A DNA stretch of 64,000 nt. It comes from Flavobacterium silvisoli. Its GTDB lineage: Bacteria > Bacteroidota > Bacteroidia > Flavobacteriales > Flavobacteriaceae. Shown here in pieces: positions 23,550 to 37,839 of this stretch. Below the pieces are notes generated by a model that saw only the letters and a list, made by a program, of their open reading frames with translations, searched no databases and was not told the DNA's origin. Numbering within the stretch: the stretch's first letter is position 1; the number at the start of each line of letters is the position of its first letter. Where the stretch lies: positions 1 to 64,000 of the forward strand of contig NZ_SJPE01000005.1 in assembly GCF_004329815.1 (NCBI RefSeq), read 5' to 3'. Both the position numbers and the translations under genes were made by a program.

Positions 23550-24155
23550 ATGCAATTTGATCCCAAAGAACTGGAGCATACTGCCGTATACAAACTACTG
23601 ACCGGAGCCATTATCCCAAGACCCATCGGCTGGGTTTCAACCATCAGTGAAAACGGCATCAACAACCTGGCACCTTTCTCCTATTTTAACGCTGTAGGCG
23701 AAGACCCGCCACACGTCATGTTTTCTACAGGCCGCGGAAATAACACCAACAAAGACACCTTAAACAATGTGTTGACCACCAAACAGTTTGTCGTAAACAT
23801 GGTAACCGAAGAACTGGCCGAACAGATGAATATAACCGCACAATCGGTCCCCGAACACGTGGACGAATTCGAACTGGCCGGAGTAACTCCCATCCCCTCT
23901 CACAAAATAAAGCCCATGCGGGTAAAAGAAAGCCCTATCGCTTTCGAATGCGAACTGGTACACCACTATTTTCTGGAAGGACACCAACACGGCGGTGCCT
24001 GCGTAATCATCGGAAGGATTGTCATGATGCATTTTGCTGATGAAGTGCTGTCAGAGCATTACAAAATCAACTTAGACGCTTACAAACCCATTTCAAGATT
24101 GGCAGGGGCTAATTATGCCAAATTAGGCGAGTTATTTGCCATCAAAAGAAACTAA
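23550..24155 (+). CDS. Flavin reductase-like FMN-binding protein (DIM6/NTAB family)
   Basis: The protein has 201 residues. TGAIIPRPIGWVSTISENGINNLAPFSYFNAVGEDPP is the typical FMN-binding split-barrel start of this family, followed by FVVNMVTEELAEQMN and the HxGGACVIIGRIV strand. Such proteins reduce flavin with NAD(P)H or act as small oxidoreductases. As first gene of the cluster it may supply reduced flavin to an oxygenase or handle an intermediate. It lies 50 bp upstream of the fused monooxygenase. Confidence 0.88.
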   Translation: MQFDPKELEHTAVYKLLTGAIIPRPIGWVSTISENGINNLAPFSYFNAVGEDPPHVMFSTGRGNNTNKDTLNNVLTTKQFVVNMVTEELAEQMNITAQSVPEHVDEFELAGVTPIPSHKIKPMRVKESPIAFECELVHHYFLEGHQHGGACVIIGRIVMMHFADEVLSEHYKINLDAYKPISRLAGANYAKLGELFAIKRN

Positions 24156-24205
24156 CCCAAAAATTGATACAGCACAATTATCAATAATCAATTACCAATT
24201 GAACC

Positions 24206-26506
24206 ATGAAAATAGCAGTTATAGGTGGAGGTCCGGGAGGACTCTACTTTTCGATACTTACTAAAAAAGCAATGCCGCACTGTCAAATTGATGTGTACGA
24301 ACGCAACAAACCCGATGACAGTTTTGGTTTCGGAGTGGTGTTCTCCGATGAAACGCTGGGCGAATTCCTCAAACGCGACATGCAGTCGTATGAACTCATC
24401 CGCACCAATTTTGCCTACTGGGACGACATCATCGTAGCACGCGACGGACAGGAAGTCAGCATAGCCGGTAACGGTTTTTGTGGTTGCTCCCGAAAAACCC
24501 TCCTGCAGTTGTTGCAACAGCGTTGCCGTGAAGAAGGCGTTACCCTTCATTTTGAACAAAATATTGAAGACCTGAGCCCATTCAAAGAGGCCGACATCAT
24601 CATAGCCGCCGATGGTATCGGAAGCCAAATCAGAACCCAATACGAAAAAGAATTTGGGACAAAAATAGCGCTGAAACAAAACCGATTCGTCTGGTTAGGT
24701 TCTACCAAACCCCTCGATGCCTTTACCTATTTCTTCCGCAGTACCCCTCACGGGACCATAGTAGCCCACACCTATCAATACGAAGCCGGCATGAGCACCT
24801 GGATTTTTGAATGCAGCGATGAAACTTGGCAAAAGCACGGCTTTGAAGTCACCAATGAAGCCGACACCATGGCCAAGATAGCTGAAATATTCAAGGAGGA
24901 ACTCGACGGCCATCCGCTGATTTCCAACAAATCGCATTGGCGCCAATTTCCGCATGTAACCAATGAAAAATGGTATCATAATAATATTGTACTCCTGGGT
25001 GATGCGAAAGCCACCGCCCACTACTCTATCGGCTCGGGAACCAAACTGGCCATGGATTGTGCCATTGCCTTATCGGATGCCGTAATCGCCAACCCAACCC
25101 ACGTGCAGGCAGCCTTCGAACAATACGACAAAACGCGAAGAAACACCGTAGAAATGATTCAACATGCAGCATTAGTTTCCCTGGATTGGTTTGAACACAT
25201 GGACCGTCACATGCAGCATCCGTTTTACCAATTCGCCTTTGGCTGTATGACCCGCTCTAAAAAAGTAACCTATGAGAACTTGAGATTACGCGACAAATCG
25301 TTTACCGATAAAGTATTAGCCGAGTTCAATACCACACAGCACAGCATTACAAAACAAACACCAGCAGCTTTTACTAAATTCCGTTTGCGTGCACTCGAAC
25401 TGCAAAACCGCATCGTCATGGCTCCCATGGGGCAGTACACCGCCGAACACGGCAATATAACCGACTGGCATTTGGTGCATTACGGCAGCAGAGCCACCGG
25501 AGGAGTCGGACTCATACTGACCGAAATGACAGCGGTATCCGAAACCGGTCGCATTACTCCGGGTTGTGCAGGCCTATACACTCAGGAACAAGTGAGTAAA
25601 TGGAAAACGGTTACCGATTTCATCCACCACCATTCCTCAACCAAAATAGGCGTACAACTGGGGCATTCGGGTAGAAAAGGAGCCGTAAAAAAACCGTGGG
25701 AAGGAACAAATGAACCTATAGAAGTACCTTGGGAATTGCTTTCGGCCTCTCCTATAGCCTACAACGACCAAATGCCGATTCCACGGGAAGTAACCCGTGA
25801 AGACATGGATAGGCTCGTTGCCCAATTTGTACAGGCCGCCAAAAATGCGGACCATGCTGGTTTTGATATGATTGAATTACAAGCCCATCACGGATTTCTG
25901 CTGGCTTCCTTCTTGTCGCCCTTAACCAACCTGCGCAAGGACGAATTCGGCGGCAGTATCGAAAACCGATTGAAATTCCCACTGCGCGTATTCACCGAAA
26001 TGCGAAAAGCCTTCCCGAAAGACAAACCAATGTCGGTCAGAATCTCTGCCTGCGATTGGGCCGAAAACGGGATATCCGAAGAAGACGTCATTGCCATAGC
26101 CACCGCTTTCAAAAATGCCGGTGCCGACATCATCAATGCATCTACCGGAAACACCGTAGCCCACCAAAAACCGCAAATCGGACGCATGTGGCAAACGCCT
26201 TTTGCGGATGCTATACGCAATACGGTTCACATCCCGACGATAACGGCCGGCTACATACAAGACCTTGACCAAATCAATACCATACTGCTCAACGGCCGAG
26301 CCGATTTGGTAGCCTTGGGCAGACCGTTATTGGCCGACGCTAATTTTGTCCGCCATGCTCAAGCATACGAACAATGGGAAGCTAATGATATTCCGAACCC
26401 ATACAAAGCAGGAAGTTCTCATTTATATCCGTTAAAAGCAACCGAACGCAAACAAACCGAAGGCATGAAAAAAGCCTTGAAACCAAAAAGCAATAAGAAG
26501 AATTAG
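24206..26506 (+). CDS. Bifunctional aryl-CoA monooxygenase/OYE-type reductase (2-aminobenzoyl-CoA or salicylyl-CoA 5-hydroxylase type)
   Basis: The protein has 766 residues in two domains. Residues 1 to about 385 are an FAD monooxygenase: dinucleotide motif GGGPGG (8-13), DG motif region IIIAADGIGSQIR, and GD motif VLLGDAKATAHYSIGSG. Residues about 390-745 are an old-yellow-enzyme TIM barrel (ALELQNRIVMAPMGQY, GVQLGHSGRKG, FLSPLTNLRKDEFGGS). The architecture matches 2-aminobenzoyl-CoA monooxygenase/reductase and salicylyl-CoA 5-hydroxylase. In the OYE half the usual HxxN/H-G-Y motif reads Q559-A-H-H562-G-F564, so the substrate-binding His and proton-donor Tyr are replaced. The stop codon lies inside the inverted repeat at 26501. 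Confidence 0.88.
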   Translation: MKIAVIGGGPGGLYFSILTKKAMPHCQIDVYERNKPDDSFGFGVVFSDETLGEFLKRDMQSYELIRTNFAYWDDIIVARDGQEVSIAGNGFCGCSRKTLLQLLQQRCREEGVTLHFEQNIEDLSPFKEADIIIAADGIGSQIRTQYEKEFGTKIALKQNRFVWLGSTKPLDAFTYFFRSTPHGTIVAHTYQYEAGMSTWIFECSDETWQKHGFEVTNEADTMAKIAEIFKEELDGHPLISNKSHWRQFPHVTNEKWYHNNIVLLGDAKATAHYSIGSGTKLAMDCAIALSDAVIANPTHVQAAFEQYDKTRRNTVEMIQHAALVSLDWFEHMDRHMQHPFYQFAFGCMTRSKKVTYENLRLRDKSFTDKVLAEFNTTQHSITKQTPAAFTKFRLRALELQNRIVMAPMGQYTAEHGNITDWHLVHYGSRATGGVGLILTEMTAVSETGRITPGCAGLYTQEQVSKWKTVTDFIHHHSSTKIGVQLGHSGRKGAVKKPWEGTNEPIEVPWELLSASPIAYNDQMPIPREVTREDMDRLVAQFVQAAKNADHAGFDMIELQAHHGFLLASFLSPLTNLRKDEFGGSIENRLKFPLRVFTEMRKAFPKDKPMSVRISACDWAENGISEEDVIAIATAFKNAGADIINASTGNTVAHQKPQIGRMWQTPFADAIRNTVHIPTITAGYIQDLDQINTILLNGRADLVALGRPLLADANFVRHAQAYEQWEANDIPNPYKAGSSHLYPLKATERKQTEGMKKALKPKSNKKN

Positions 26507-26896
26507 GAATTACGAATTGTGAATTATGAAAAAAGATAATGTTGTTCAGGTGAAGAGTTATGCGTTTGCTGTTAAGGTTATAAAAACGTATCAACAGTTA
26601 TGTGCCTCCCGAAAAGAATTCGTACTGAGTAAACAACTCTTACGTTCCGGAACCTCTATCGGAGCTAATATTGAAGAAGCTATTGGCGGACAATCAGAAA
26701 AAGATTTTTATGCAAAACTAAGCATAGCGTATAAAGAAGCCAGAGAAACAAATTACTGGATAAGACTGCTAAAAGATACCGATTATCTCAATGAAGAAGA
26801 ATCGGACAGTCTGTTAAACGATATTGATGAATTACTGAGGATTATTGGCTCCATCCAAAAAACACTTCGTAATTCCTAATTTATAATTCGTAATTA
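26501..26896 (+). mobile_element. Inverted-repeat-bounded four-helix-bundle insertion
   Basis: AATTAGGAATTACGAA (26501-26516) is the perfect reverse complement of TTCGTAATTCCTAATT (26866-26881). Additional aattacgaatt-like units sit inside each end. The pair encloses the four-helix-bundle gene and interrupts the monooxygenase-ligase junction. The inserted unit is inferred from the repeats; no target-site duplication was identified. Confidence 0.65.
26526..26879 (+). CDS. Four-helix bundle protein (23S rRNA intervening-sequence protein family)
   Basis: The protein has 117 residues, all helical, with the family signature: KVIKTYQQLCASRKEFVLSKQLLRSGTSIGANIEEAIGGQSEKDFYAKLSIAYKEARETNYWIRLL. These proteins are encoded within rRNA intervening sequences or as small dispersed genes between AT-rich repeats; an RNA- or DNA-binding role has been proposed. 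The last codons (R-N-S-stop) fall in the right inverted repeat. It has no obvious link to the aromatic pathway. Confidence 0.9.
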   Translation: MKKDNVVQVKSYAFAVKVIKTYQQLCASRKEFVLSKQLLRSGTSIGANIEEAIGGQSEKDFYAKLSIAYKEARETNYWIRLLKDTDYLNEEESDSLLNDIDELLRIIGSIQKTLRNS

Positions 26897-26899
26897 TTT

Positions 26900-28489
26900 A
26901 TGAAACATTATGACGACAATTTCGCGCACGACCACTTGCCAAGTCCCGACTTGCAACCCGATTATGTGTTCTTAGACGCACCGCAGTTTAACCGGCCGGA
27001 AATGCTCAATTGTGTGCACCGTCTGTTAGATTACCATATAGAAAAAGGCCATGGAGATGCGGTAGCCATCCGTACTTTTGATACCGTCTGGACCTACCGT
27101 GAACTATATGAAAAAGCCAATCAGTTAGCCCATGTACTGGTTGAAGATATGGGACTGAAATCGGGAAATCGCGTTTTAATTCGTTCGGCCAACAACCCGA
27201 TGATGGTAGCCTGTTGGTTTGCCATACTCAAGGCAGGCGGAATTGTAGTGGCCACCATGCCGTTGCTTCGGGCTAAAGAATTAACAACAATCATTGATTG
27301 TGCCGAAATAACGTTGGCGTTATGCGACAGCGAATTGGCCGATGAAATGCAGTTGGTAAAATCCGATTACCTCAAAAAAACAAGGTATTACGGCAATGCA
27401 CAACTGGAAACGCTGATGGCCGGCAAACCAAAGACGTTTACCAACTACCATACTAAATCCGATAGCATAGCACTGATTGGATTTACCTCCGGAACGACCG
27501 GCTTACCCAAAATGACGGCACATTTTCACAAAGACATTTTGAACATCTGTGAAGCCTTTCCGCAATACTCCTTGCAACCCACCCCGGAAGATATTTTCAC
27601 CGGAAGTCCGCCACTGGGCTTTACGTTCGGATTGGGAGGTTTGGTGTTGTTTCCGTTGTATTTCGGAGCGTCAACGTTCTTAATTGAAAAACCGACTCCC
27701 GATATGCTCCTGCAGGCCATACAAGAGTATAAAATTACCATTTGCTTTACCGCACCCACCGCCTGGCGTGTGATTACGTCAAAAGTGAAAGAGTTCGATA
27801 TCTCCAGCCTGCGCAAATGCGTTTCCGCGGGTGAGACCCTGCCGCTTAAAGTTTGGCAGGATTGGTATGATGCGACCGGGTTAAAAATCATTGACGGCAT
27901 TGGTGCTACCGAAATGTTGCATATCTTTATATCTTCAAACGAAACCAATATGAAACCCGGCGCTACCGGTGTAGCCATAACCGGTTACGAAGCCAAAATT
28001 GTAGACCCTGAAGGCAAAACGGTACCGGCTAACGAACCGGGAAGATTAATGGTTCGGGGGATTACAGGGTGTAAATATCTGAACCGTGAAGACAAACAAC
28101 GCGAATACGTATCCGGGGGCTGGAATTTTACCGGTGACATCTTCCGCCAAGATGAAGACGGCTATTTCTGGTTCGTGGCACGCGGCGACGATATGATTAT
28201 TTCTTCGGGGTACAACATTGGCGCCATCGAAGTGGAAAGTGTATTACTGACCCACGAAGAAATAGCGGAATGTGCGGTAGTGGGGTTGCCCGATCAGGAA
28301 AGAGGAATGCTGGTTTGTGCCCACATCGTGCTGAAAGACAAAACCAAAGCTACCGATAACATGAAAAATCATATCCAGCACTGGTTCAAAGAAGTTGCGG
28401 CACCCTACAAATATCCGAGAGTGATTTATTTTACCGATGCCCTGCCCAAAACAGAAACCGGTAAGATTCAACGATTTAAATTAAAATAA
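26900..28489 (+). CDS. Aryl-CoA ligase (2-aminobenzoate/benzoate-CoA ligase type)
   Basis: The protein has 529 residues. AMP-binding motif FTSGTTGLPKMTAHFH (about 195-210), DGIGATEMLHIF, FTGDIFRQDEDGYFWF, DDMIISSGYNIGAIEVE and the C-terminal Lys in PKTETGKIQRFKLK define an acyl-adenylate/CoA ligase. The DGIGxTEMLHIFISN-like segment is characteristic of benzoate and 2-aminobenzoate CoA ligases. Its place next to the CoA-thioester monooxygenase supports activation of an ortho-substituted benzoate. It ends one base before the next gene. Confidence 0.9.
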   Translation: MKHYDDNFAHDHLPSPDLQPDYVFLDAPQFNRPEMLNCVHRLLDYHIEKGHGDAVAIRTFDTVWTYRELYEKANQLAHVLVEDMGLKSGNRVLIRSANNPMMVACWFAILKAGGIVVATMPLLRAKELTTIIDCAEITLALCDSELADEMQLVKSDYLKKTRYYGNAQLETLMAGKPKTFTNYHTKSDSIALIGFTSGTTGLPKMTAHFHKDILNICEAFPQYSLQPTPEDIFTGSPPLGFTFGLGGLVLFPLYFGASTFLIEKPTPDMLLQAIQEYKITICFTAPTAWRVITSKVKEFDISSLRKCVSAGETLPLKVWQDWYDATGLKIIDGIGATEMLHIFISSNETNMKPGATGVAITGYEAKIVDPEGKTVPANEPGRLMVRGITGCKYLNREDKQREYVSGGWNFTGDIFRQDEDGYFWFVARGDDMIISSGYNIGAIEVESVLLTHEEIAECAVVGLPDQERGMLVCAHIVLKDKTKATDNMKNHIQHWFKEVAAPYKYPRVIYFTDALPKTETGKIQRFKLK

Positions 28490-28490
28490 A

Positions 28491-30071
28491 ATGAGAAAAG
28501 CATTTTTAGTTTTTGCGATTACTACACTGTCTATCATGGGACTACTAACCTATGTCAACTGGAAGTTTAGTTTCTTAGGGTTAATATTTATTCCGCTAAT
28601 CCTGATGGGGTTTTTCGACATGTTCCAATCCAAAAGAACCATTCGCAGGAACTTTCCCTTGTTGGGCAGAATGCGCTACTTATTAGAAGCTTTGGGACCG
28701 GGAGCCCGACAGTATTTTATTGAAAGTGATACCGACGGCAAGCCGTTCAACCGTTTGCAGCGCAGTTTGGTATACCAACGCAGTAAAAAGGAAATTGACA
28801 CCATGCCTTTTGGTACCCAACTCAACGTTTACGAACCGGGCTACAAGTGGATCAACCACAGCATCAAAGCCATTCCGTTTGCAGAGGTTGATGCCAATCC
28901 AAGGATAAAAATCGGTTCCTCGCAATGCGAAAAACCATACGAGGCCAGTTTGTTCAACATCAGTGCCATGAGTTATGGCTCTTTGAGTAAAAATGCCATC
29001 ATAGCGTTGAATGACGGTGCCAAACAGGGCGGCTTTTATCACAATACCGGAGAAGGCGGCTTATCGCCTTACCATTTACGCGGTGGCGATGTAGTGTGGA
29101 ACATCGGAACCGGTTACTTCAGCTGCCGTGGCAAAGACGGGAAATTCTCTTATGAGGAATTTGTCAAAAGAGCCACCTTGGACAATGTGAAAATGATTGA
29201 AATCAAATTCTCCCAAGGTGCCAAACCCGGACACGGCGGTATCTTACCCAAAGAAAAAGTAACCGACGAAATTGCCACTATTCGTTTGGTTGACAAAGGA
29301 CACGATATCATATCCCCTCCCACCCATTCCGCTTTCAAAACGCCATTGGAACTGATGGAATTCATCAAACTATTGCGTAAAGGTTCGGGCGGAAAACCCA
29401 TCGGTATGAAAATCTGTATTGGGAATAAATCTGAGTTCTTAGCCATTTGTAAAGCCATGGTGGCCACACAAACGTATTTCGACTTCATTACCGTAGACGG
29501 TGGCGAAGGCGGTACCGGGGCGGCTCCTCAGGAATACTCCGATCATGTGGGCATGCCCCTGCGCGAAGCCTTAGCTTTTGTATACGACAGCCTCAACGGT
29601 TTCGGCATCAAAAACGAAATCAAAATCATCGCCAGCGGCAAAGTCATCACCGGTTTCGATATTATCAAATGCTTATCAATCGGTGCCGACCTCTGCAATT
29701 CAGCCCGTGGTATGATGTTCGCCTTAGGTTGCATCCAGGCGTTGGAATGCCACAAAAACACCTGCCCGACCGGAGTAGCCACCCAAGACCCGCGATTGAC
29801 CAAAGGTCTGGTACCCGAAGAAAAAAGCATCCGCGTGGCGCGTTTCCAACACGAAACCGTGAAAAGTGCTATGGAACTCATGGCCTCGGCCGGACTCAAA
29901 CATCCGGATGATGTCGACAGATCAGTAGTCAGCGCCCGCATCAGCGGCACCAAAATTGAAACCTATTACGAAACCTATCCCGAAATCGAAACGGGTTGCC
30001 TCTTACACGAAAATACCGTTCCTAAGGAATATTTGTATTTTTGGAAGAAAGCAACGGCTGAAAGTTTTTAG
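28491..30071 (+). CDS. Membrane-anchored FMN-binding glutamate-synthase-like protein
   Basis: The protein has 526 residues. Two hydrophobic helices at the N-terminus (FLVFAITTLSIMGLLTYV, FLGLIFIPLILMGFF) precede a GltS central/FMN barrel: NISAMSYGSLSKNAIIALN, NTGEGGLSPYH, DGGEGGTGAAP, and a Cys cluster CHKNTCPTGVATQDP near residues 420-430 that could hold a [3Fe-4S] centre. There is no glutaminase domain, as in archaeal-type GltB2. Released ammonium or an electron-transfer role may explain its place in the cluster. This is inference. Confidence 0.85.
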   Translation: MRKAFLVFAITTLSIMGLLTYVNWKFSFLGLIFIPLILMGFFDMFQSKRTIRRNFPLLGRMRYLLEALGPGARQYFIESDTDGKPFNRLQRSLVYQRSKKEIDTMPFGTQLNVYEPGYKWINHSIKAIPFAEVDANPRIKIGSSQCEKPYEASLFNISAMSYGSLSKNAIIALNDGAKQGGFYHNTGEGGLSPYHLRGGDVVWNIGTGYFSCRGKDGKFSYEEFVKRATLDNVKMIEIKFSQGAKPGHGGILPKEKVTDEIATIRLVDKGHDIISPPTHSAFKTPLELMEFIKLLRKGSGGKPIGMKICIGNKSEFLAICKAMVATQTYFDFITVDGGEGGTGAAPQEYSDHVGMPLREALAFVYDSLNGFGIKNEIKIIASGKVITGFDIIKCLSIGADLCNSARGMMFALGCIQALECHKNTCPTGVATQDPRLTKGLVPEEKSIRVARFQHETVKSAMELMASAGLKHPDDVDRSVVSARISGTKIETYYETYPEIETGCLLHENTVPKEYLYFWKKATAESF

Positions 30072-30076
30072 GAGCT

Positions 30077-30160
30077 GGTTCCCGCTGTCCGTGCTACACG
30101 GTAGCTTGCTCCCATCGGGGCTATTTAAAGTTAAAAGAAGGACAACCGCTGGTTGTCAGG
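30077..30160. repeat. Hairpin-rich dispersed element, degenerate copy
   Basis: It contains CCGTG-CTA-CACGG (30089-30101) and GACAACC-GCT-GGTTGTC (30141-30157). The segment ttcccgctgtccg...gctcccatcgggg resembles, in reverse orientation, parts of the palindromic element at 34731. It fills the only sizeable gap (108 bp) between the glutamate-synthase-like and thioesterase genes. Confidence 0.45.
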
Positions 30161-30179
30161 CACAAAAACAAAAATATTA

Positions 30180-30602
30180 ATGAACAACTATTTTACTAAA
30201 CAAGAAAAAATCCGTTTCAAACATGTTGATTACGCCGGTATCGTTTTTTATCCGCGTTTCCTCGAAATGCTCAACGACTTGGTTGAAGACTGGTTTGAAG
30301 AAGCACTTGACCGACCTTTCTCCAAAATCCATGAAACCAATGGCATTCCAACCGTCGATTTGAAAGTGCAATTCAAAAAAGCCGCCCGCATTGGGGAAAT
30401 CCTCACCAAAAAACTCTGGGTCATCAAACTGGGAGGATCCTCTGTACATTGTGGTTTCCGCTTTGAAGACGAACAAGGCAACACTTGTTTGGAAGGCGAA
30501 GTAACCTTAGTTAATGTTGCCATTGCAGCCGACAGACACAATATAAAATCAGAACCTTTTTCGGAAGAAATAAAATCAAAAATCGCTAATTATACATTAT
30601 GA
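30180..30602 (+). CDS. Acyl-CoA thioesterase, 4-hydroxybenzoyl-CoA thioesterase family (hotdog)
   Basis: The protein has about 140 residues from the ATG at 30180; an upstream in-frame start at 30153 would fall in the repeat. FKHVDYAGIVFYPRFLEMLNDLVEDWFEE is the hotdog active-site region, with the catalytic Asp in HVDYAGIVFYPRF. In the pathway it could release the hydroxylated aromatic acid from CoA before ring cleavage. It overlaps the next gene by four bases (ATGA), indicating translational coupling. Confidence 0.88.
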   Translation: MNNYFTKQEKIRFKHVDYAGIVFYPRFLEMLNDLVEDWFEEALDRPFSKIHETNGIPTVDLKVQFKKAARIGEILTKKLWVIKLGGSSVHCGFRFEDEQGNTCLEGEVTLVNVAIAADRHNIKSEPFSEEIKSKIANYTL

Positions 30603-30952
30603 AAAAGTACTTATTACTCTTATTGCTCTCTGTTTCGCTCAACGGAATGGCTCAGGAAAAAAACCATTATAAAAAGGTTTTCAATTATGGCGAATACAAA
30701 ACTGATTGGGCTTTAGTGCAAAACATCACCGGAACGTATGGCTTTATCAACAAAGAAGGTAAAGAAGTGGTGCCGGCAATCTATTTAAAAATTTACCCAT
30801 TCGAAACTCACAAAAATAAAAAGTACGCCCTGATCAAAAATGTGGCCGGTGCCTACGGGTTCATCGATGAAAACGGACAAGAAGCGGTAAAAGCCATTTA
30901 CTGGAAAAAAGAAGAAGCCACCCAACAGCTAACCATGCTTACCAAAAAATAA
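30599..30952 (+). CDS. Short secreted WG-repeat protein
   Basis: The protein has 117 residues. A signal peptide (MKKYLLLLLLSVSLNGMAQE) is followed by two WG-like repeats: WALVQNITGTYGFINKEGKEVVPAIYLKI and YALIKNVAGAYGFIDENGQEAVKAIYWKK. WG repeats are structural, and only two remain here. Its ATGA overlap with the thioesterase and five-base gap to the nitrilase put it firmly in the operon, but its role there is unclear. Confidence 0.8.
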   Translation: MKKYLLLLLLSVSLNGMAQEKNHYKKVFNYGEYKTDWALVQNITGTYGFINKEGKEVVPAIYLKIYPFETHKNKKYALIKNVAGAYGFIDENGQEAVKAIYWKKEEATQQLTMLTKK

Positions 30953-30957
30953 ACGTC

Positions 30958-31938
30958 ATGACCTTCAAAAAATTCAAAGCCGCCACCGTACAAACGGCAC
31001 CTGTTTTTCTCAACGTAGAAAAAACAATAGCCAAAGCGATTGCTTTTGTCAAAGAAGCTAGCGAAAACGGGGCACAACTCATCGCTTTTCCCGAAGTCTT
31101 CGTAGCCGGTTACCCGTACTGGAACTGGATTATGACACCGGTACAGGGGAGCAAATGGTATGAGCAATTGTATAAAAACTCCGTTGCCGTAGACGATGCG
31201 GCGATGCAACCGCTGTACCAAGCTGCCAAAGACCATAACATGCATATCGTTATCGGCATCAATGAGAGAGGAACAAGCTATGGCGAAATTTACAACACCA
31301 ACCTCATCATTGATAACCACGGAAAACTCATTGGCAAACACCGCAAACTAGTCCCAACCTGGGCCGAAAAGCTCACGTGGACCTCCGGCGATGGTTCATC
31401 CTTGAAAGTGTATGATACCGAAGTAGGTCCCGTCGGCACCTTGGCTTGTGGCGAAAACACCAATACCTTAGCCAGATTTACGCTGTTATCGCAAGGCGAA
31501 TTGGTACACATCGCCAATTACATTTCCCTGCCCGTAGCCCCACCCGATTATGACATGGCCGAAGCCATTAAGATTCGTGCTGCGGCGCATTCCTTTGAAG
31601 GCAAATTGTTTACGATTGTTTCTTGTTCCACCATTTCGCAGGAAATCAAAGATGCCTTGCGTGCGGATGTGCCCAATGTAGACGAATTGTTATCGCGCAA
31701 AAGTTCGGCCTTCTCCGGATTTATCGGTCCGAACGGTGCGGTGATTGGTACACCGTTAATTGACGATGAAGGAATTGCATACGCGGATATTGATTTAGAA
31801 AAATGCATCCAACCGAAACAAATGCACGACATTCTTGGGCATTACAACCGCTTTGATATTTTTGATTTAAGGGTAAATACCGCTCCGACCAGAAAGATTA
31901 CCTTTGTAGACAACCACGAAGAGTTTAATAAACCCTAA
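30958..31938 (+). CDS. Nitrilase-superfamily hydrolase (branch-1 nitrilase type)
   Basis: The protein has 326 residues. The catalytic triad is visible: E46 (FPEVFVAGYP), K130 (GKHRKLVPT) and C164 (TLACGENTNTLARF). The CGENTN context and the GE-x-VHIANY segment are those of true nitrilases, although related enzymes act as amidases. In this cluster it could hydrolyse an aromatic nitrile feeding the pathway, or deaminate maleamate formed from an amino-substituted ring. The final stop codon (31936-31938) lies inside the REP palindrome. Confidence 0.88.
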   Translation: MTFKKFKAATVQTAPVFLNVEKTIAKAIAFVKEASENGAQLIAFPEVFVAGYPYWNWIMTPVQGSKWYEQLYKNSVAVDDAAMQPLYQAAKDHNMHIVIGINERGTSYGEIYNTNLIIDNHGKLIGKHRKLVPTWAEKLTWTSGDGSSLKVYDTEVGPVGTLACGENTNTLARFTLLSQGELVHIANYISLPVAPPDYDMAEAIKIRAAAHSFEGKLFTIVSCSTISQEIKDALRADVPNVDELLSRKSSAFSGFIGPNGAVIGTPLIDDEGIAYADIDLEKCIQPKQMHDILGHYNRFDIFDLRVNTAPTRKITFVDNHEEFNKP

Positions 31939-31963
31939 CAGGGTTTAAAACCCTGTTAGGGTT
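31931..31963. repeat. REP palindrome 1, left of the RAYT gene
   Basis: Arms 31931-31946 and 31948-31963 (aaccctaacagggttt and its reverse complement) form a 16-bp stem with a one-base loop. Confidence 0.9.
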
Positions 31964-31980
31964 ATAATTAAAGAAAAATA

Positions 31981-32526
31981 ATGTCAGAAAAAAAAGAAAC
32001 TATCGAACAAGGATGCTATTACCACATTTACAACCGTGGAAATAATGGCTGTGATGTTTTCTTTGATACAGAAAGTTATAATTACTTTCTGAGACTTTAT
32101 GATAAATATATTTCACCGGTAGCGGATACATTTGCCTGGTGTTTACTTAAAAATCACTTTCATATTTTAGTTTATATCAAACTTAATCATGAAGTTGATA
32201 TAGAAAAAATGGAGTTCTCAACAGTTAAACTGCCTAAAGTCATTTCGCCATCAAGACAATTTTCCCACTTATTCAATGCTTATACCCAAGCCATAAATAA
32301 AAAATTTAATCGCACCGGAAGTTTATTCGAAACCACGTTTGAAAGAAAAAAAGTTACTTCTGATGCTTATTTACAAAAGCTGATTTTTTATATTCACAAC
32401 AATCCCGTACACCATGGATTTACACAACATTTAAATCTTTATCCTTGGTCGTCATATGACACAATACTTTCAGATAAAACAACTAAACTAAAACGGAATG
32501 ATGTTATTGATTTTTTTTGGGAGTAA
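31981..32526 (+). CDS. REP-associated tyrosine transposase (RAYT, Y1_Tnp/IS200-like)
   Basis: The protein has 181 residues. GCYYHIYNRGNNGCDVFFD at the start, WCLLKNHFHILVYI (the H-x-H metal site with hydrophobic flanks), FNAYTQAINKKFNRTGSLFE and the Tyr in FYIHNNPVHHGF match TnpA-REP family proteins, Bacteroidetes type. These enzymes cleave and join single-stranded REP DNA. It is bounded by two palindromes built from the same 11-mer, and interrupts the nitrilase-dioxygenase junction. Confidence 0.92.
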   Translation: MSEKKETIEQGCYYHIYNRGNNGCDVFFDTESYNYFLRLYDKYISPVADTFAWCLLKNHFHILVYIKLNHEVDIEKMEFSTVKLPKVISPSRQFSHLFNAYTQAINKKFNRTGSLFETTFERKKVTSDAYLQKLIFYIHNNPVHHGFTQHLNLYPWSSYDTILSDKTTKLKRNDVIDFFWE

Positions 32527-32595
32527 AAGTAATTTTGTAGAAATTCACAACTCAAAACAAAACTTAGAAGATATAACCAATTTAATCATCGAATA

Positions 32596-32629
32596 AAACC
32601 CTGTTAGGGTTTGAAACCCTAACAGGGTT
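32596..32629. repeat. REP palindrome 2, right of the RAYT gene
   Basis: Arms 32596-32612 and 32614-32629 are built from ccctgttaggg and ccctaacaggg, in the inverse order of REP 1. The pair therefore forms a BIME-like flank around the transposase. Confidence 0.9.
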
Positions 32630-32644
32630 AAATAAAAACAACCT

Positions 32645-33754
32645 ATGGAAACCAACAACTACTCAGATGACGTCATCGGCCGTGCCCGAGTACAAGATAC
32701 CCCCGAACTCGAAGCTTATTATAAAGAATTAGAAACTTTGGGAGCGGGCGCACTTTGGAAGGTGGCCAACGATATCGAACCCTGGGAACCCCGAACCAAC
32801 TCGATACCCATGTTGTGGAAATACGACGACTTACGCAGTTTGGTCTTAAAATCTTCCGAACTCGTAACTCCGGAACAAGCGGGACGCCGTGTGGTGTATT
32901 TGGTTAACGACAAACGCAAAGACGTTTCGGCCGCTGTGGGTTGGTTGTACACCGGAATTCAAGTCACCCGCCCGGGCGAAAGTACTTCGGCACACCGCCA
33001 TCGCGCCTCAGCTTTACGCTTTATTATGGAAGGCTCTAAAGGCTACACCGTGGTGGATGGAAATAAAATCATGTTAGAAGTCAACGACTTTGTCATCACA
33101 CCCAACTCCGCTTGGCACGAACACGGGGTAGAACCCGACGGACAAACCTGCATTTGGCAGGACGGACTGGATATACCACTCGTAAATGCTTTAGAAGCCA
33201 ATGATTATGCGGTATACGATGGCAAACAGCCCTTAGTAAAACCCATCAATCATTTGCCGTTGAGTTACAGTTGTGCGGGTTTAATTCCGGCCGACAAAAC
33301 TTGGGACAAACCGTATTCGCCTCTATTCAAATATTCGTGGAGTAAAGTGTACCCTGCTCTTTTAGACGCTCAAATCGTAAACCATCCGGATCCGTTTGAC
33401 GGGATATTGATGCAGTACTCCAATCCGCTTACCGGCGGTCATGTGATGCAAACGATGGGCGCTGCGATGCAATTACTACCGGCCGGTTTCAAAGGGAAAG
33501 CGCACAAACACACAGGGTCTTTTGTGTACCAATGTGCCAAAGGGAGCGGCTACACCATCATCAACGGACAACGTTTTGACTGGAAGGAACGCGATATTTT
33601 TTGCGTACCGTCATGGGCGTGGCACGAACACCACAATTCTTCAGACACCGAAGACGCCTGTTTATTCAACTTCAACGACCTGCCGGTAATTGAAGGCTTG
33701 GGCTTATTTCAAGGCAGAGACTATACTGAAAACAACGGACATCAATTAATTTAA
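32645..33754 (+). CDS. Bicupin ring-cleaving dioxygenase, gentisate 1,2-dioxygenase family
   Basis: The protein has 369 residues. The N-terminal cupin carries the Fe(II) ligands: H117 and H119 in STSAHRHRASALRFIMEG and H158 in NSAWHEHG, with the same 39-residue spacing as in gentisate dioxygenases. The second cupin (KAHKHTGSFVYQC...WAWHEHHN) is also well preserved. These enzymes open gentisate between C1 and C2. Relatives accept 5-aminosalicylate, 5-nitrosalicylate or hydroxyanthranilates, so the true substrate here is open. The FAH hydrolase follows 46 bp downstream. Confidence 0.9.
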   Translation: METNNYSDDVIGRARVQDTPELEAYYKELETLGAGALWKVANDIEPWEPRTNSIPMLWKYDDLRSLVLKSSELVTPEQAGRRVVYLVNDKRKDVSAAVGWLYTGIQVTRPGESTSAHRHRASALRFIMEGSKGYTVVDGNKIMLEVNDFVITPNSAWHEHGVEPDGQTCIWQDGLDIPLVNALEANDYAVYDGKQPLVKPINHLPLSYSCAGLIPADKTWDKPYSPLFKYSWSKVYPALLDAQIVNHPDPFDGILMQYSNPLTGGHVMQTMGAAMQLLPAGFKGKAHKHTGSFVYQCAKGSGYTIINGQRFDWKERDIFCVPSWAWHEHHNSSDTEDACLFNFNDLPVIEGLGLFQGRDYTENNGHQLI

Positions 33755-33800
33755 CAAACAGACCCATCAGAGACTTTGCTACTCTGCAACTTTAAAACAA

Positions 33801-34715
33801 ATGAAACTACTAACCTACATTACCAAAGACACCGAACCCCGATTGGGCTTTCTTCACAACAACCAAGTCATCGATATGGAAGACTTTGGTGAGATTTCCA
33901 ATTTTCCCTTGCCGTCTGATATGCTCGATTTGATTGACATGGGCATTGAAATTATAGAGGAATTAAACGAAATGGTGGCCGATACTCCCGAAAACTACTT
34001 CAACGAAATTGCTTATGCTATGGATGAAGTAACCCTACTCGCCCCGATTCAAAAACCGAGAAAAAACATCATTGGGATTGGGTTGAATTACACCGAACAC
34101 GTAGCCGAGAGTGCCCGGACTTTAGATACCACCGGTAAATTACCGCAAAAACCGATTATTTTTTCCAAACCGCCTACCACTGTAACCGGAACGAATACTG
34201 AGATTATTAAAAACACCAAACTCACTTCGCAACTGGATTGGGAAGTGGAATTGGCAGTGGTCATAGGCCAACACGGCAAGTACGTTCCTAAAGCGGAGGC
34301 CTTGGATTATGTGTTTGGCTATACGGTGATTAACGATATTTCGGCACGCGATTGCCGCAGAGAAGGCCAATGGATTGTATCGAAAGGACAAGACACTTTT
34401 GCACCTATGGGACCGATTTTAGTGACCAAAGACGAAATTGAAAACCCGCACAACCTGAATTTATCGCTGAAAGTGAACGGTGTAGAAAAGCAAAACTCCA
34501 ACACCAAATTCATGTTGTTCAACATCAACGACTTGATTGAAGACTTGAGCACGGTGTTTACCTTAGAACCCGGAGACATCATCGCTACCGGAACACCCGC
34601 GGGTGTCGGTGCCGGTCGTGACCCCCAGGAATGGTTGTACGACGGCGATGTGGTGGAAGCCACAGTGGAAGGCATAGGAACCCTCGTGAATACGGTAAAG
34701 GAGATTTCTAAATAA
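33801..34715 (+). CDS. FAH-family hydrolase (maleyl/fumarylpyruvate hydrolase type)
   Basis: The protein has 304 residues. IGIGLNYTEHVAES, PIIFSKPPTTVTG, LDWEVELAVVIGQHGKYV (metal-binding E-x-E), GYTVINDISARDCR and GDIIATGTPAGVGAGRDP are the hallmark segments of fumarylacetoacetate-hydrolase-fold enzymes. After a gentisate-type cleavage it should hydrolyse the beta-diketo product to pyruvate and a C4 acid. No maleylpyruvate isomerase gene is seen nearby, which favours direct hydrolysis to maleate or maleamate. Confidence 0.9.
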   Translation: MKLLTYITKDTEPRLGFLHNNQVIDMEDFGEISNFPLPSDMLDLIDMGIEIIEELNEMVADTPENYFNEIAYAMDEVTLLAPIQKPRKNIIGIGLNYTEHVAESARTLDTTGKLPQKPIIFSKPPTTVTGTNTEIIKNTKLTSQLDWEVELAVVIGQHGKYVPKAEALDYVFGYTVINDISARDCRREGQWIVSKGQDTFAPMGPILVTKDEIENPHNLNLSLKVNGVEKQNSNTKFMLFNINDLIEDLSTVFTLEPGDIIATGTPAGVGAGRDPQEWLYDGDVVEATVEGIGTLVNTVKEISK

Positions 34716-34730
34716 ATGACTTACTGCGTT

Positions 34731-34838
34731 GGGGATTGCAGTGGAAATCCTTTTTAAATTGCCATGGGTTTTAACCCGGGGCATTTTAAAAAGATTGTAA
34801 CGGAAAGCCCAACCCGCCAAAGGCGGGTAACGCCCAAA
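34731..34838. repeat. Imperfect palindromic dispersed element
   Basis: CTTTTTAAATTGCC (34750-34763) faces GGCATTTTAAAAAG (34780-34793) around a GGGTT-TT-AACCC hairpin (34766-34777). An ACCCGCC-AAA-GGCGGGT hairpin follows (34812-34828). The flanks ggggattgcagtgg and gattgtaacgg resemble a repeat common in Flavobacterium intergenic regions. It fills the gap before the isomerase gene. Confidence 0.6.
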
Positions 34839-34878
34839 AAGTTAAACTCACCGCTAACTACTTGAAACTTGAAACAAA

Positions 34879-35631
34879 ATGAACAAAAAATATAGAATAG
34901 GACAAATAGTTCCGTCGTCGAACGTGACGATGGAAACCGAAATACCGGCCATTTTCAGGGCCCGAGAAACGATATTGCCGGAGCGTTTTACGTTTCACAG
35001 CAGTCGCATGCGGATGAAAAAAGTGACCAAAGAAGAATTGGAGGCCATGGATGCCATGAGTTTGAAGTGTGCCGAGGAATTGTCGGATGCGCATGTAGAT
35101 GTGATGGGCTACGCTTGTTTGGTAGCGATTATGAGTATGGGACGCGGCTATCATTGTGTGTCGGAAGTGAATTTGCATCAGGAAACGGTGGCCAACGACT
35201 TCCCTACTCCGATTGTAACTTCGGCCGGTGCTTTGATTAACGGATTGAAAGTATTGGGCGCAAAAAAAGTATCGATTATTACGCCCTATATGCGTCCGCT
35301 GACCGACTTGGTTGTGGATTATATTGAGCATCAGGGTTTTGAGGTGGTGGACAGTATAGCGTTGGAAATTCCGGATAATTTGGAAGTGGCTGCGCAAAAC
35401 CCGATGAATTTATTGGCGATTTACAAACGTTTGGATTTGACCGGTGTGGATGTGATTGTGGCTTCGGCCTGTGTGCAAATGCCTTCGTTGGAAGCCATTG
35501 ATTTGATACAAAAAGAAAGCGGCATTCCGGTGACTTCGGCGGCGGTGTGCACGACCTACGAAATGATGAAGAAATTGGGCATTGAGGCCAAATCAACTAT
35601 TGGAGGAGAATTGCTCAACGGTGATTACTAA
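34879..35631 (+). CDS. Maleate cis-trans isomerase (Asp/Glu racemase superfamily)
   Basis: The protein has 250 residues. The two catalytic cysteines are present: C80 (MGYACLVAIMSMG) and C198 (IVASACVQMPSLEA), 118 residues apart as in characterised maleate isomerases. IGQIVPSSNVTMETEIPAIF at the N-terminus and VTSAAVCTTYEMMKKLG near the C-terminus are typical. It would turn maleate into fumarate for the TCA cycle, completing the cluster. A terminator lies 200 bp downstream. Confidence 0.92.
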   Translation: MNKKYRIGQIVPSSNVTMETEIPAIFRARETILPERFTFHSSRMRMKKVTKEELEAMDAMSLKCAEELSDAHVDVMGYACLVAIMSMGRGYHCVSEVNLHQETVANDFPTPIVTSAGALINGLKVLGAKKVSIITPYMRPLTDLVVDYIEHQGFEVVDSIALEIPDNLEVAAQNPMNLLAIYKRLDLTGVDVIVASACVQMPSLEAIDLIQKESGIPVTSAAVCTTYEMMKKLGIEAKSTIGGELLNGDY

Positions 35632-37008: not shown

Positions 37009-37839
37009 TTAAGCTACTTTTACCGAAGTCATGCTGAGACTGCCGGCTACCATTTTATCGTTAAACAAACTCAGGTTTTCTCCTTTTTGTTGCAGTCCTA
37101 ACGTATAAAGTAAAGGCAGGTAATGATCAGGCGAAGGGATGGCCAGATTAAAGGCTTTCCCCTGTCGGTCATAATCCAACAAAGGTTGGTAATCTCCCTG
37201 CAACAGATAACTGTTTATGGTTTCACGAGCTTCCAAGGCCCAATCGTATCCGTAATCTTCCTTGTTAAAATTATGAAAATCAACCAAACGCAGGTTGTGA
37301 ACTATATTACCGCTACCAATAATCAACACTCCCTTATTGCGCAGTGCCTGAAGCTGTTTACCCAAACCAAAATGAAACTCTGCCGGTTGAGTATAATCAA
37401 TGCTCAACTGAATAACCGGAACATCCGCCAACGGATACAAATGCTTAACAACCGACCAAGTGCCGTGGTCGAGCCCCCATTCCTCATCGAGTGTTACCGA
37501 AACAGGTTGCAATAATTGTTGGGTTTCCTGAGCCAAAAGCGGACTCCCCGGTGCCGGATACAGCACGGCAAACAACTCTTTAGGGAAACCACCGAAATCG
37601 TGAATAGTTCTCGGCATAGACATAGCCGTAACTTTTGTCCCGCGGGTGAACCAGTGTGCGGATATACAGACTATAGCTGTTGGCTTTTGCAGGTCTTTTA
37701 CACTGTTGCGAAACCCTTGCACAAACTGATTTTCTTCTATGGCATTCATCGGACTGCCGTGACCAAAGAAAAACACAGGCATCTTGTCTGTGTTGGGAAA
37801 CGTTTGAGCAATGTAGTGCAAGTCGTTTAACGTTGTCAT
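37009..37839 (-). CDS. ygiD: 4,5-DOPA-extradiol-dioxygenase-like protein
   Basis: The protein has 276 residues. MPVFFFGHGSPMNAIEENQF, CISAHWFTRGTKVT, ARTIHDFGGFPKELF-like, EEWGLDHGTWSVVKHLYP and IGSGNIVHNL carry the metal-binding His residues of the class III LigB-type family, most like YgiD. It opens catechols such as DOPA in vitro; the physiological role is uncertain. It stands alone, 50 bp from its upstream neighbour, and is probably not part of the gentisate-type pathway. Confidence 0.9.
   Translation of the reverse strand: MTTLNDLHYIAQTFPNTDKMPVFFFGHGSPMNAIEENQFVQGFRNSVKDLQKPTAIVCISAHWFTRGTKVTAMSMPRTIHDFGGFPKELFAVLYPAPGSPLLAQETQQLLQPVSVTLDEEWGLDHGTWSVVKHLYPLADVPVIQLSIDYTQPAEFHFGLGKQLQALRNKGVLIIGSGNIVHNLRLVDFHNFNKEDYGYDWALEARETINSYLLQGDYQPLLDYDRQGKAFNLAIPSPDHYLPLLYTLGLQQKGENLSLFNDKMVAGSLSMTSVKVA

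Follow-up and report, generated by a model that had tools for sequence, protein, structure and literature searches.

The cluster at positions 23550-35631 of the window, i.e., the whole stretch of 64,000 nucleotides of Flavobacterium silvisoli DNA analyzed here, raises the question of which aromatic acid is degraded by its products, and of whether a nitrogen substituent is removed before or after the ring is opened. According to the open reading frame list and family profile searches, eight core genes, all in one direction (+), span this interval in the order flavin reductase, fusion of an FAD hydroxylase with an old-yellow-enzyme (OYE) domain, CoA ligase, thioesterase, nitrilase-family hydrolase, bicupin dioxygenase, FAH hydrolase and maleate isomerase; the genes that a sequence-only reading had named here were recovered as open frames with profile matches to the expected families. 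The interval contains:

23550-24155, + strand, flavin reductase, core gene 1 (Flavin_Reduct PF01613, 88.9 bits)
24206-26506, + strand, FAD monooxygenase (N-terminal) with OYE domain (C-terminal) (PF01494, PF00724, NF006101)
26526-26879, + strand, four-helix-bundle protein of the 23S rRNA intervening-sequence type (TIGR02436 / PF05635), in 1/14 congeneric clusters, not core
26900-28489, + strand, AMP-binding ligase (family profile match; best solved relative 4wv3)
28491-30071, + strand, glutamate-synthase-like FMN protein (PF01645), accessory, in 3/14 congeneric clusters, not core
30153-30602, + strand, 4HBT hotdog thioesterase (PF13279 / PF03061), in 14/14 congeneric clusters, likely start at ATG 30180
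30599-30952, + strand, short WG-repeat-like ORF (repeat type assigned by eye), no match in 15 congeneric loci, not core
30958-31938, + strand, CN_hydrolase of the nitrilase superfamily (PF00795)
31981-32526, + strand, inserted ORF resembling what we take to be a REP-associated tyrosine transposase, no match in 15 congeneric loci, not core
32645-33754, + strand, bicupin ring-cleaving dioxygenase (best solved relative 3bu7, 504 bits)
33801-34715, + strand, FAH-family hydrolase (FAA_hydrolase, PF01557, 236 bits)
34879-35631, + strand, maleate cis-trans isomerase (closest solved relative 4fq7, 318.8 bits, E 1.7e-94)

The locus was compared with 15 congeneric loci, judging the gene set as far as each sequence extends. 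On this basis the same gene order was found in 14/15 loci, and the co-occurrence of the eight genes therefore exceeds chance. The full set in identical order was present in 12 congeneric genomes; L031, covered for 20 kb around the locus, displays six core genes, L032, which ends at a contig edge, displays four and part of the nitrilase, and the 15th locus (L035) holds the hydroxylase and flavin reductase only. The flavin reductase, found in 15/15 loci with 64-78% identity, possibly supplies reduced flavin to the hydroxylase. The glutamate-synthase-like, four-helix, WG-repeat and REP-transposase ORFs fall outside the core in this comparison; the first had been assigned a working role in the handling of ammonium, which is not borne out, as its presence in three relatives only makes it no conserved part of the set. 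Some intergenic gaps of the relatives hold other, non-matching ORFs.

We consider it quite likely that the locus is a complete aerobic anthranilate-mineralizing operon in which the ring is cut before nitrogen is removed. What the sequences themselves show is which genes are present, how they are ordered and conserved, their active-site residues and their linkage; all substrates and products are those that we infer. In this route, the ligase would convert anthranilate into anthraniloyl-CoA, and the flavoprotein would hydroxylate C5 to give 5-hydroxyanthraniloyl-CoA, the ring staying aromatic because the ene-reductase (OYE) domain is altered; the thioesterase would presumably free 5-hydroxyanthranilate. 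The bicupin iron dioxygenase, proposed as a 5-hydroxyanthranilate 1,2-dioxygenase, would cleave the C1-C2 bond and, with the amino group still on C2, this carbon would become an amide, yielding maleamylpyruvate. The FAH-family enzyme, a candidate maleamylpyruvate hydrolase, would split the latter to give maleamate and pyruvate. From maleamate, the nitrilase-fold hydrolase would release ammonia and form maleate, or it would act one step earlier, on maleamylpyruvate, and the maleate isomerase would deliver fumarate to the TCA cycle.

Regarding the entry step, among solved structures the ligase matched 4wv3 ('Anthranilate-CoA ligase') best, with 292 bits, benzoate-CoA ligases reaching at most 221 bits. 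It is also 47.5% identical to the ligase on plasmid pAL1 of Arthrobacter Rue61a, which adjoins a hydroxylase of the same family and which we equate with an assayed anthranilate-CoA ligase; the product of 26900-28489 is probably an enzyme of this activity. The Rue61a study reports, by assay, anthranilate-CoA ligase activity for the products of two genes, and a presumed hydroxyanthraniloyl-CoA thioester found only in anthranilate-grown cells (PMC3534580); it also describes a thioester consistent with ring reduction and no growth on 5-hydroxyanthranilate or gentisate, two observations that speak against the proposed route.

To assess the linkage of the lower genes in other taxa, 80 relatives of the dioxygenase were retained from bacterial genomes and their fetched flanks were scanned. 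These flanks include a nitrilase from the same clade as that of the window in 69/80 loci (median gap, 104 bp), FAH in 76/80 and the maleate isomerase in 59/80. No nitrilase match was found in seven of the 80 loci with full flanks (six from Achromobacter, one from Reyranella), and four further loci lack a same-clade nitrilase: L099, L111 and L116 lie on short or cut contigs, and L133 carries another nitrilase lineage. On plasmids, nine of the best 10 nitrilase records (at least 53% identity) carry one of the best 17 dioxygenases, at most 1.4 kb away. The neighbors of this block vary: ligase and hydroxylase constitute the entry module in 44/80 loci; genes for tryptophan dioxygenase (TDO), kynureninase and an amino-acid permease adjoin the block in Paraburkholderia, Burkholderia and Pseudomonas gessardii; iorAB, in some cases accompanied by a cyclase-family gene, adjoins it in Ruegeria, Shinella, Sagittula and Caballeronia, plus 10/80 loci; and none of the entry modules sought was found at 16/80 loci. 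The synteny with kynureninase genes suggested as a check is therefore seen in other bacteria, although the kynureninase of the window's own genome lies on a different contig; an ordinary 3-hydroxyanthranilate dioxygenase is also found in the genus (32/37), a point against the proposed route. The arrangement is not specific to Bacteroidota, since homologous clusters are present in Actinomycetota and Pseudomonadota.

Salicylate represents the main alternative substrate. The CoA pathway from salicylate to gentisate comprises, in a linear set, a ligase, a CoA-ester 5-hydroxylase and a gentisate-type dioxygenase, all three with counterparts in the window. The locus could accordingly be read as leading from salicylate through salicylyl-CoA, gentisyl-CoA, gentisate and maleylpyruvate to maleate plus pyruvate, and on to fumarate, the nitrilase being unrelated or producing salicylate from a nitrile or amide. 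In agreement with this, the NCBIfam family matched by residues 1-750 of the hydroxylase is named 'bifunctional salicylyl-CoA 5-hydroxylase/oxidoreductase' (NF006101; 1005.1 bits, slightly below the curated cut-off of 1078), and the dioxygenase has gentisate-binding residues: a three-His iron site (H117, H119, H158) together with residues for the carboxylate and the 2- and 5-substituents, mapped by motif. The iron-site, second-cupin (H287, H289, H327) and mapped substrate residues are invariant in 105 aligned dioxygenases, except H289 (102/105) and Y102 (99/105); H117, H119, H158, R81, Q106, R125, H160 and D173 are kept in 105/105. Substrate-residue roles were transferred by motif mapping from a report in which an Asp is said to contact a 5-OH group (PMC10306065); the Asp is retained in the window enzyme and would fit either 5-hydroxyanthranilate or gentisate. 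Given these residues, and that 3bu7, identical to the Ruegeria cluster protein across the aligned part, was deposited as a gentisate 1,2-dioxygenase, gentisate may well be accepted. Conversely, the enzyme scored 296.9 bits with the gentisate 1,2-dioxygenase model TIGR02272, under its curated cut-off of 442.1; the ligase resembles an anthranilate-CoA ligase; the salicylate pathway carries no nitrogen, so an amidohydrolase is unnecessary there, and yet the nitrilase recurs beside the lower pathway with differing entry modules; and TDO-kynureninase and iorAB neighbors, which point to anthranilate sources, would be unexpected. With all this, degradation of salicylate appears unlikely.

A second alternative is a 2-aminobenzoyl-CoA pathway of the Azoarcus type, with a flavoprotein that hydroxylates and reduces the ring, beta-oxidation finishing the thioester and the dioxygenase block serving another substrate. 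The N-terminal FAD monooxygenase fused to a C-terminal OYE domain (the architecture of 2-aminobenzoyl-CoA monooxygenase/reductase, ACMR) is present in the window hydroxylase, and also in the Ruegeria enzyme (47.9% identity), whose gene lies beside those for enoyl-CoA hydratase, acyl-CoA dehydrogenase and RidA; we take the Azoarcus enzyme to share this fusion. The OYE signature in the window is Q-H-F, compared with H-H-Y by motif, the residue set for ring reduction being presumably H-x-x-H-G-Y. Among the sequences compared, which share ancestry, the H-H-Y triad is intact in 10/10 hydroxylases from other contexts and altered in 66/67 of the cluster set, which would fit hydroxylation without loss of ring aromaticity; the product of 24206-26506 is probably an anthraniloyl-CoA 5-hydroxylase. 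On the Ruegeria megaplasmid, the sole hydroxylase match is of the OYE-intact type and lies inside a beta-oxidation cluster. Two of the ten intact controls (Rue61a and Rhodococcus BG43) accompany a single-cupin protein, FAH and a thioesterase, so that ring cleavage may occur alongside an OYE domain whose triad is intact. The pathway of Azoarcus evansii likewise starts with an anthranilate-CoA ligase and a hydroxylase-OYE-type flavoprotein, but is described as proceeding by ring reduction and beta-oxidation of the product; the window enzyme, by contrast, has an altered OYE triad, and its cluster continues with thioesterase, nitrilase, bicupin, FAH and maleate isomerase. As the core conserved in the congeneric loci holds neither beta-oxidation nor RidA genes, and a dearomatized ring would make the ring-cleaving dioxygenase useless, this alternative is very improbable.

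With respect to nitrogen release, which under the anthranilate route would follow ring cleavage, the nitrilase-family protein is proposed as a maleamate (or maleamylpyruvate) amidase. Its catalytic E46-K130-E137-C164 residues (Glu-Lys-Cys triad plus second Glu) are invariant in 88/88 aligned sequences. By score, the protein lies nearest to true nitrilases and to enzymes that degrade cyanide (220 bits), Nit2 reaching only 33.7 bits, so that hydrolysis of a C4-acid amide is an extrapolation; the score with the Nit6803 nitrilase model TIGR04048 was 232.2 bits, under the curated cut-off of 502.6. The isomerase is 84-96% identical across 12 congeneric loci, and its alignment with 4fq7, which we take to be the maleate isomerase of Pseudomonas putida S16, covers residues 3-250 with both conserved cysteines aligned (80 and 198, presumably the catalytic pair). 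The nicotinate/nicotine route also ends with maleamate, maleate and fumarate, as proposed here, although its known maleamate amidase is isochorismatase-like, in contrast to the nitrilase-fold candidate of the window. Enzymes of the nitrilase superfamily attack the carbon of a nitrile or an amide and are not known to act on aryl amines. For this reason, and because the conserved set holds no other candidate deaminase and a hydrolase acting after ring cleavage requires no new chemistry, deamination of 5-hydroxyanthranilate to gentisate before cleavage, whether by the nitrilase-fold protein or by an enzyme encoded elsewhere, is the least probable alternative, even though the dioxygenase fits gentisate and such a route is reviewed for Nocardia opaca (PMC4539516).

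Anthranilate is thus favored over salicylate by the nitrilase-dioxygenase linkage in other phyla, the TDO-kynureninase or iorAB-cyclase neighbors, the likeness of the ligase to an anthranilate-CoA ligase, and the altered OYE triad; the same features support, at the level of sequence, the original idea that an amino group on C2 would yield an amide upon cleavage and that the nitrilase-fold enzyme would free ammonia ahead of the maleate isomerase. In the portions of the open-access literature consulted, we found no description of the segment from ring cleavage to maleamate, and no enzyme of the present clade reported as assayed with 5-hydroxyanthranilate or maleamate. The iad loci of Variovorax, Bradyrhizobium and Achromobacter, which convert indole-3-acetate to anthranilate (PMC9613470), resemble the proteobacterial neighbors of the lower block in their iorAB homologues and in IadI, annotated as kynurenine formamidase; they are described with anthranilic acid as the end point.

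On balance, we favor the view that 5-hydroxyanthranilate 1,2-dioxygenase, maleamylpyruvate hydrolase, nitrilase-fold maleamate amidase and maleate isomerase constitute an undescribed, horizontally spread lower pathway, joined in several phyla to differing upstream modules that feed it from free anthranilate, from tryptophan or 5-hydroxytryptophan via kynureninase, and from isatin or indole-3-acetate via an IorAB making anthraniloyl-CoA from isatinate. If so, a common product of tryptophan and auxin breakdown would be mineralized with ring cleavage preceding nitrogen removal, maleamate would be a new physiological substrate for a nitrilase-like clade, and the altered reductase domain of the cluster hydroxylases would be explained. 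Many 'salicylyl-CoA hydroxylase', 'cupin dioxygenase' and 'carbon-nitrogen hydrolase' labels would hide a specific, different job. Furthermore, anthranilate would gain a fate in auxin-degrading bacteria, and the step that follows it there would become directly testable.

Besides antisense ORFs, 23550-35631 contains 12 open frames of at least 90 residues on the + strand. Ten of these 12 were characterized by family scans, and the scans, together with the nearest solved relatives, showed the gene list of the sequence-only reading to be right.

Open frames on the + strand of 23550-35631 (family scans unless stated; ordinals count the scanned ORFs)
First, +: flavin reductase
Second, +: FAD monooxygenase fused to an old-yellow-enzyme domain (hydroxylase-OYE), 766 residues
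Third, +: four-helix protein
Fourth, +: AMP-binding aryl-CoA ligase
Fifth, +: glutamate-synthase-like FMN protein
Sixth, +: 4HBT thioesterase
Seventh, +: CN hydrolase (nitrilase)
Eighth, +: bicupin (dioxygenase)
Ninth, +: FAA hydrolase (FAH)
Tenth, +: arylmalonate-decarboxylase-family protein, nearest solved relatives maleate isomerases
30599, +: WG-repeat-like ORF (open frame)
31981, +: REP-transposase-like ORF (open frame)

Among 60 related genomes searched, 16 of the 37 from the genus, the window's own included, encode a full-length relative of the hydroxylase-OYE protein (at least 63% identity), and none of the 23 outside it does, these giving only partial matches or nothing. Up to 20 kb around each of the 15 other copies were compared, and 14 of these congeneric loci share, as far as their sequence reaches, the order flavin reductase, hydroxylase, ligase, thioesterase, nitrilase, dioxygenase, FAH and maleate isomerase, with other ORFs in some intergenic gaps. 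All eight core genes are present in 12 loci; the sequence of L031 ends after the dioxygenase, the contig of L032 ends inside the nitrilase, and L035 has only the hydroxylase and, about 3 kb away, a flavin reductase. Thus, the nitrilase is as constant as the ring-cleaving enzyme. The glutamate-synthase-like gene occurs only in L024, L025 and L026, the four-helix protein only in L024, and the WG-repeat-like and REP-transposase-like ORFs have no match in the 15 loci. Given this poor conservation, we dropped the ammonium-assimilation role previously proposed for the glutamate-synthase-like protein. Immediately downstream, 37009-37839 on the opposite strand encodes a LigB-family (extradiol dioxygenase-like) protein; it has no match in the 15 loci either and so is probably unrelated to the cluster.

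Elsewhere in the window, G+C content is 33% at 1-18 kb versus about 45% in the cluster, with an abrupt change near 18 kb, and in the low-G+C part three of the scanned proteins bear sorting tails for type IX secretion. A 3324-residue ORF (46260-56234) combines PKD, Big_2 and P-domain regions with a CHU_C type IX secretion signal and is predicted from these domains to be a giant secreted or surface protein.

The best solved relative of the ligase is an anthranilate-CoA ligase (292 bits), benzoate-CoA ligases reaching at most 221 bits, and it shares 47.5% identity with the ligase of Arthrobacter Rue61a plasmid pAL1 and 51.7% with the Ruegeria ligase from a cluster linked to tryptophan dioxygenase (TDO). 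According to the accessible portions of PMC3534580, Rue61a has two genes with anthranilate-CoA ligase activity, one of them plasmid-borne, which from its position we take to be the pAL1 gene compared here; a presumed hydroxyanthraniloyl-CoA thioester was detected solely in anthranilate-grown cells, as was a second thioester, perhaps derived from ring reduction, and salicylate, gentisate and 5-hydroxyanthranilate did not support growth.

The OYE site of the hydroxylase was examined in 67 cluster enzymes (the window's, 15 congeners and 51 others), counting L035, which is not dioxygenase-linked, after removal of eight duplicated fragments and a misaligned OYE reference. In OYE enzymes, the motif His-x-x-His-Gly-Tyr provides the substrate-binding and proton-donor residues. 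This H-H-Y triad is kept in all 10 relatives from other contexts (Ruegeria, Roseivivax, Leisingera, Paracoccus, Phyllobacterium, Mesorhizobium, Pseudochrobactrum, a Thalassospira enzyme accompanied by kynU, and Rhodococcus and Arthrobacter enzymes from quinolone/quinaldine plasmids) and in one stand-alone OYE, whereas 66 of the 67 cluster hydroxylases have lost at least one triad residue. The window and all 15 congeners have Q-H-F; the other 51 have Q-H-H (30), Q with Y, F, R, Q or N (17), H-H-H (2) or H-H-F (1), and only L114 is intact. L035 also has the altered triad, though the remainder of the operon is absent within its 20 kb. The contrast is to be taken as a pattern rather than an independent-sample test, because the sequences share ancestry. 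It fits an enzyme that no longer reduces the ring, which a ring-cleaving dioxygenase acting next would require; against this, the Rue61a and Rhodococcus clusters pair an intact enzyme with a single-cupin protein, FAH and thioesterase, and the sole hydroxylase match on the Ruegeria megaplasmid is of the intact beta-oxidation type.

The dioxygenase retains, as mapped by motif, the gentisate-binding residues named in the accessible part of PMC10306065, including the Asp contacting the 5-OH, and a 5-hydroxylated ring is therefore its expected substrate; its active-site residues do not separate OH from NH2 at C2, i.e., gentisate from 5-hydroxyanthranilate. The nitrilase, nearest to nitrilases and cyanide-degrading enzymes, belongs to a set in which Glu46-Lys130-Glu137-Cys164 is kept in 88 of 88 sequences.

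The association of both enzymes extends across phyla. About 85,000 species genomes were scanned with a dioxygenase alignment and at least 571 relatives were confirmed; the best 80 loci, as judged by similarity to an actinobacterial member, were retained, a choice that over-represents Streptomyces. At fixed bit thresholds, these loci contain FAH (76), nitrilase (69), maleate isomerase (59), hydroxylase (49) and ligase (47); nitrilase and dioxygenase are separated by a median of 104 bp, by at most 300 bp in 55 of the 69 loci, and by up to 6.8 kb. The 11 nitrilase-less loci include short contigs (L099, L111), L116, whose nitrilase is cut at the contig end, and L133, with another nitrilase lineage about 6.5 kb from the dioxygenase; in L130, L134, L136, L137, L139, L140 and L141 the nitrilase is absent despite full flanks. 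In Achromobacter L134, a gene with the amidase signature lies upstream of the dioxygenase; it was considered as a replacement for the nitrilase and rejected, as no other examined locus has one. The second nitrilase lineage, which shares 30-32% identity with the nitrilase of the window, lies near dioxygenase and FAH in Novosphingobium L060, Aminobacter L144, Tistrella L145 and Nitratireductor L133; maleate isomerase has no match in L133 and L060 and none listed in L144 and L145.

Among 72,556 plasmids, 201 records had any dioxygenase match, and among the 40 listed the best 17 show at least 53% identity and the next at most 42%; for the nitrilase (875 records), the best 10 of the 20 listed show at least 53% and the next at most 47%. 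Nine records fall in both best groups, with the two genes at most 1.4 kb apart; the tenth nitrilase plasmid (Polaromonas) has no dioxygenase among the matches listed within 8 kb, and, low-ranked unlisted fragments aside, such a nitrilase is present in at most one of the remaining 184 records with a dioxygenase match. Neighbourhoods were examined in 11 of the 17 dioxygenase plasmids (the others being H3, H4, H5, H12, H14 and H17), those of H1, H2 and H16 being read from ORFs, as these records have no gene table. Six of these neighbourhoods contain a nitrilase of the same clade (H2, H7, H9, H10, H13, H16) and three one of a different lineage (H1, H11, H15); H6, where insertion sequences adjoin, and H8, where RidA is present, have none.

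Dioxygenase and nitrilase distances correlate at 0.93 (thinned set, 43 loci), which shows co-inheritance, not function. Midpoint-rooted trees were built for 105 dioxygenases and for 88 nitrilases, and in each the window groups with 13 congeners in a single clade (support 1.0), consistent with the block having been acquired once; the sister group is not the same in the two trees, being Rhodobacterales plus Shinella (0.92) in one and Vogesella (0.85) in the other. In 395 genomes drawn across Bacteroidota, a dioxygenase of at least 79% identity was found in six, own genome counted, all of the same genus; six more matches were short pieces of 29-37% identity.

The lower block (dioxygenase, FAH, nitrilase and maleate isomerase) recurs across loci, and the upstream part varies. 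Ligase and hydroxylase accompany it in the window, in the congeners and in most of the Actinomycetota retained. The 80 loci comprise 44 with ligase and hydroxylase, 3 with ligase only, 2 with hydroxylase only, 6 with iorA, 3 with iorA and hydroxylase, 5 with TDO/kynureninase, 1 (L109) with iorA and a putative kynureninase (27% identity, counted here but left out as support), and 16 with none of these. The suggested search for the cluster beside kynureninase genes proved positive: TDO, kynureninase and an amino-acid permease precede the nitrilase in Paraburkholderia L118, Burkholderia L112 and L123, and Pseudomonas gessardii L122. The kynureninases of L112 (298 bits) and L122 (297 bits) exceed the curated cut-off (246 bits), and the permease was seen in both; TDO was confirmed by Pfam in L122 and in Streptomyces L063, the 240-residue L122 piece scoring 246 bits versus the 391 required by NCBIfam, and the L118 and L123 calls come from similarity search alone. 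No hydroxylase or ligase match was found within the 10 kb fetched in these four loci, so a start from 5-hydroxytryptophan, or unlinked genes, is possible, and the clusters could degrade 5-hydroxytryptophan or 5-hydroxykynurenine.

Within the genus, phylogenetic profiling by kynurenine genes was defeated by their near-ubiquity: of 37 genomes, 36 have a TDO-family gene (every score below the curated cut-off) and 32 have 3-hydroxyanthranilate dioxygenase, and the pathway therefore does not separate genomes with the cluster from those without. Kynureninase, searched in the window's own genome only, is present on a different contig.

The third entry, with iorA in 10 of the 80 loci, brings together iorAB, a thioesterase and MarR regulators, sometimes joined by a cyclase-family gene (PF04199 in both scanned cases), in Ruegeria, Shinella, Sagittula and Caballeronia; the Caballeronia row reads iorAB, thioesterase, hydroxylase, dioxygenase, FAH, nitrilase and isomerase, after which come a divergently oriented MarR gene and the cyclase. 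An apparent mutual exclusion of IorAB and ligase does not hold, as L107 has parts of both. These clusters share iorAB homologues with the published iad auxin loci, whose route, in the accessible text, runs via isatin and isatinate to anthranilate (PMC9613470, PMC12633357, PMC11630574), its early steps having been revised by isotope work (PMC12633357). On our reading, IorAB would convert isatinate into anthraniloyl-CoA. All three entries would thus yield anthranilate, its CoA ester or 5-hydroxyanthranilate, and none would yield salicylate. Metagenome bins labelled Bifidobacterium breve (L111, L117, L121) carry the aerobic ring-cleavage dioxygenase and iorA; the labels are probably wrong, or the contigs misbinned.

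The four aerobic anthranilate routes listed in the accessible part of PMC4539516 proceed through catechol, gentisate via 5-hydroxyanthranilate (Nocardia opaca), 3-hydroxyanthranilate or 2-aminobenzoyl-CoA, and PMC8383072, likewise seen in excerpt, cites Claus and Kutzner (1983) for indole-3-acetate to gentisate via anthranilate in Alcaligenes; in contrast to the route proposed here, none of these, as described there, retains the amino group through gentisate-type cleavage to maleamate. We found no description of such a cleavage in the mostly open-access literature searched, and this is weak evidence of absence; PMC10005059, a candidate description, concerns, in its accessible text, pyridine and aniline gene counts in Rhodococcus and not this route. 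The enzyme families are ordinary, and it is their combination for which no description was found in that literature.

Taken together, the core operon quite probably encodes conversion of anthranilate through 5-hydroxyanthranilate to maleamate, with substrates deduced from gene content and context. This reading gives a role to every conserved gene, the flavin reductase loosely, and is supported by the cross-phylum linkage. The Ruegeria pomeroyi megaplasmid (L055, L148) carries the nitrilase-dioxygenase block by iorAB and, elsewhere, a hydroxylase-beta-oxidation-RidA cluster by TDO, and constitutes a natural test bed for both pathways.
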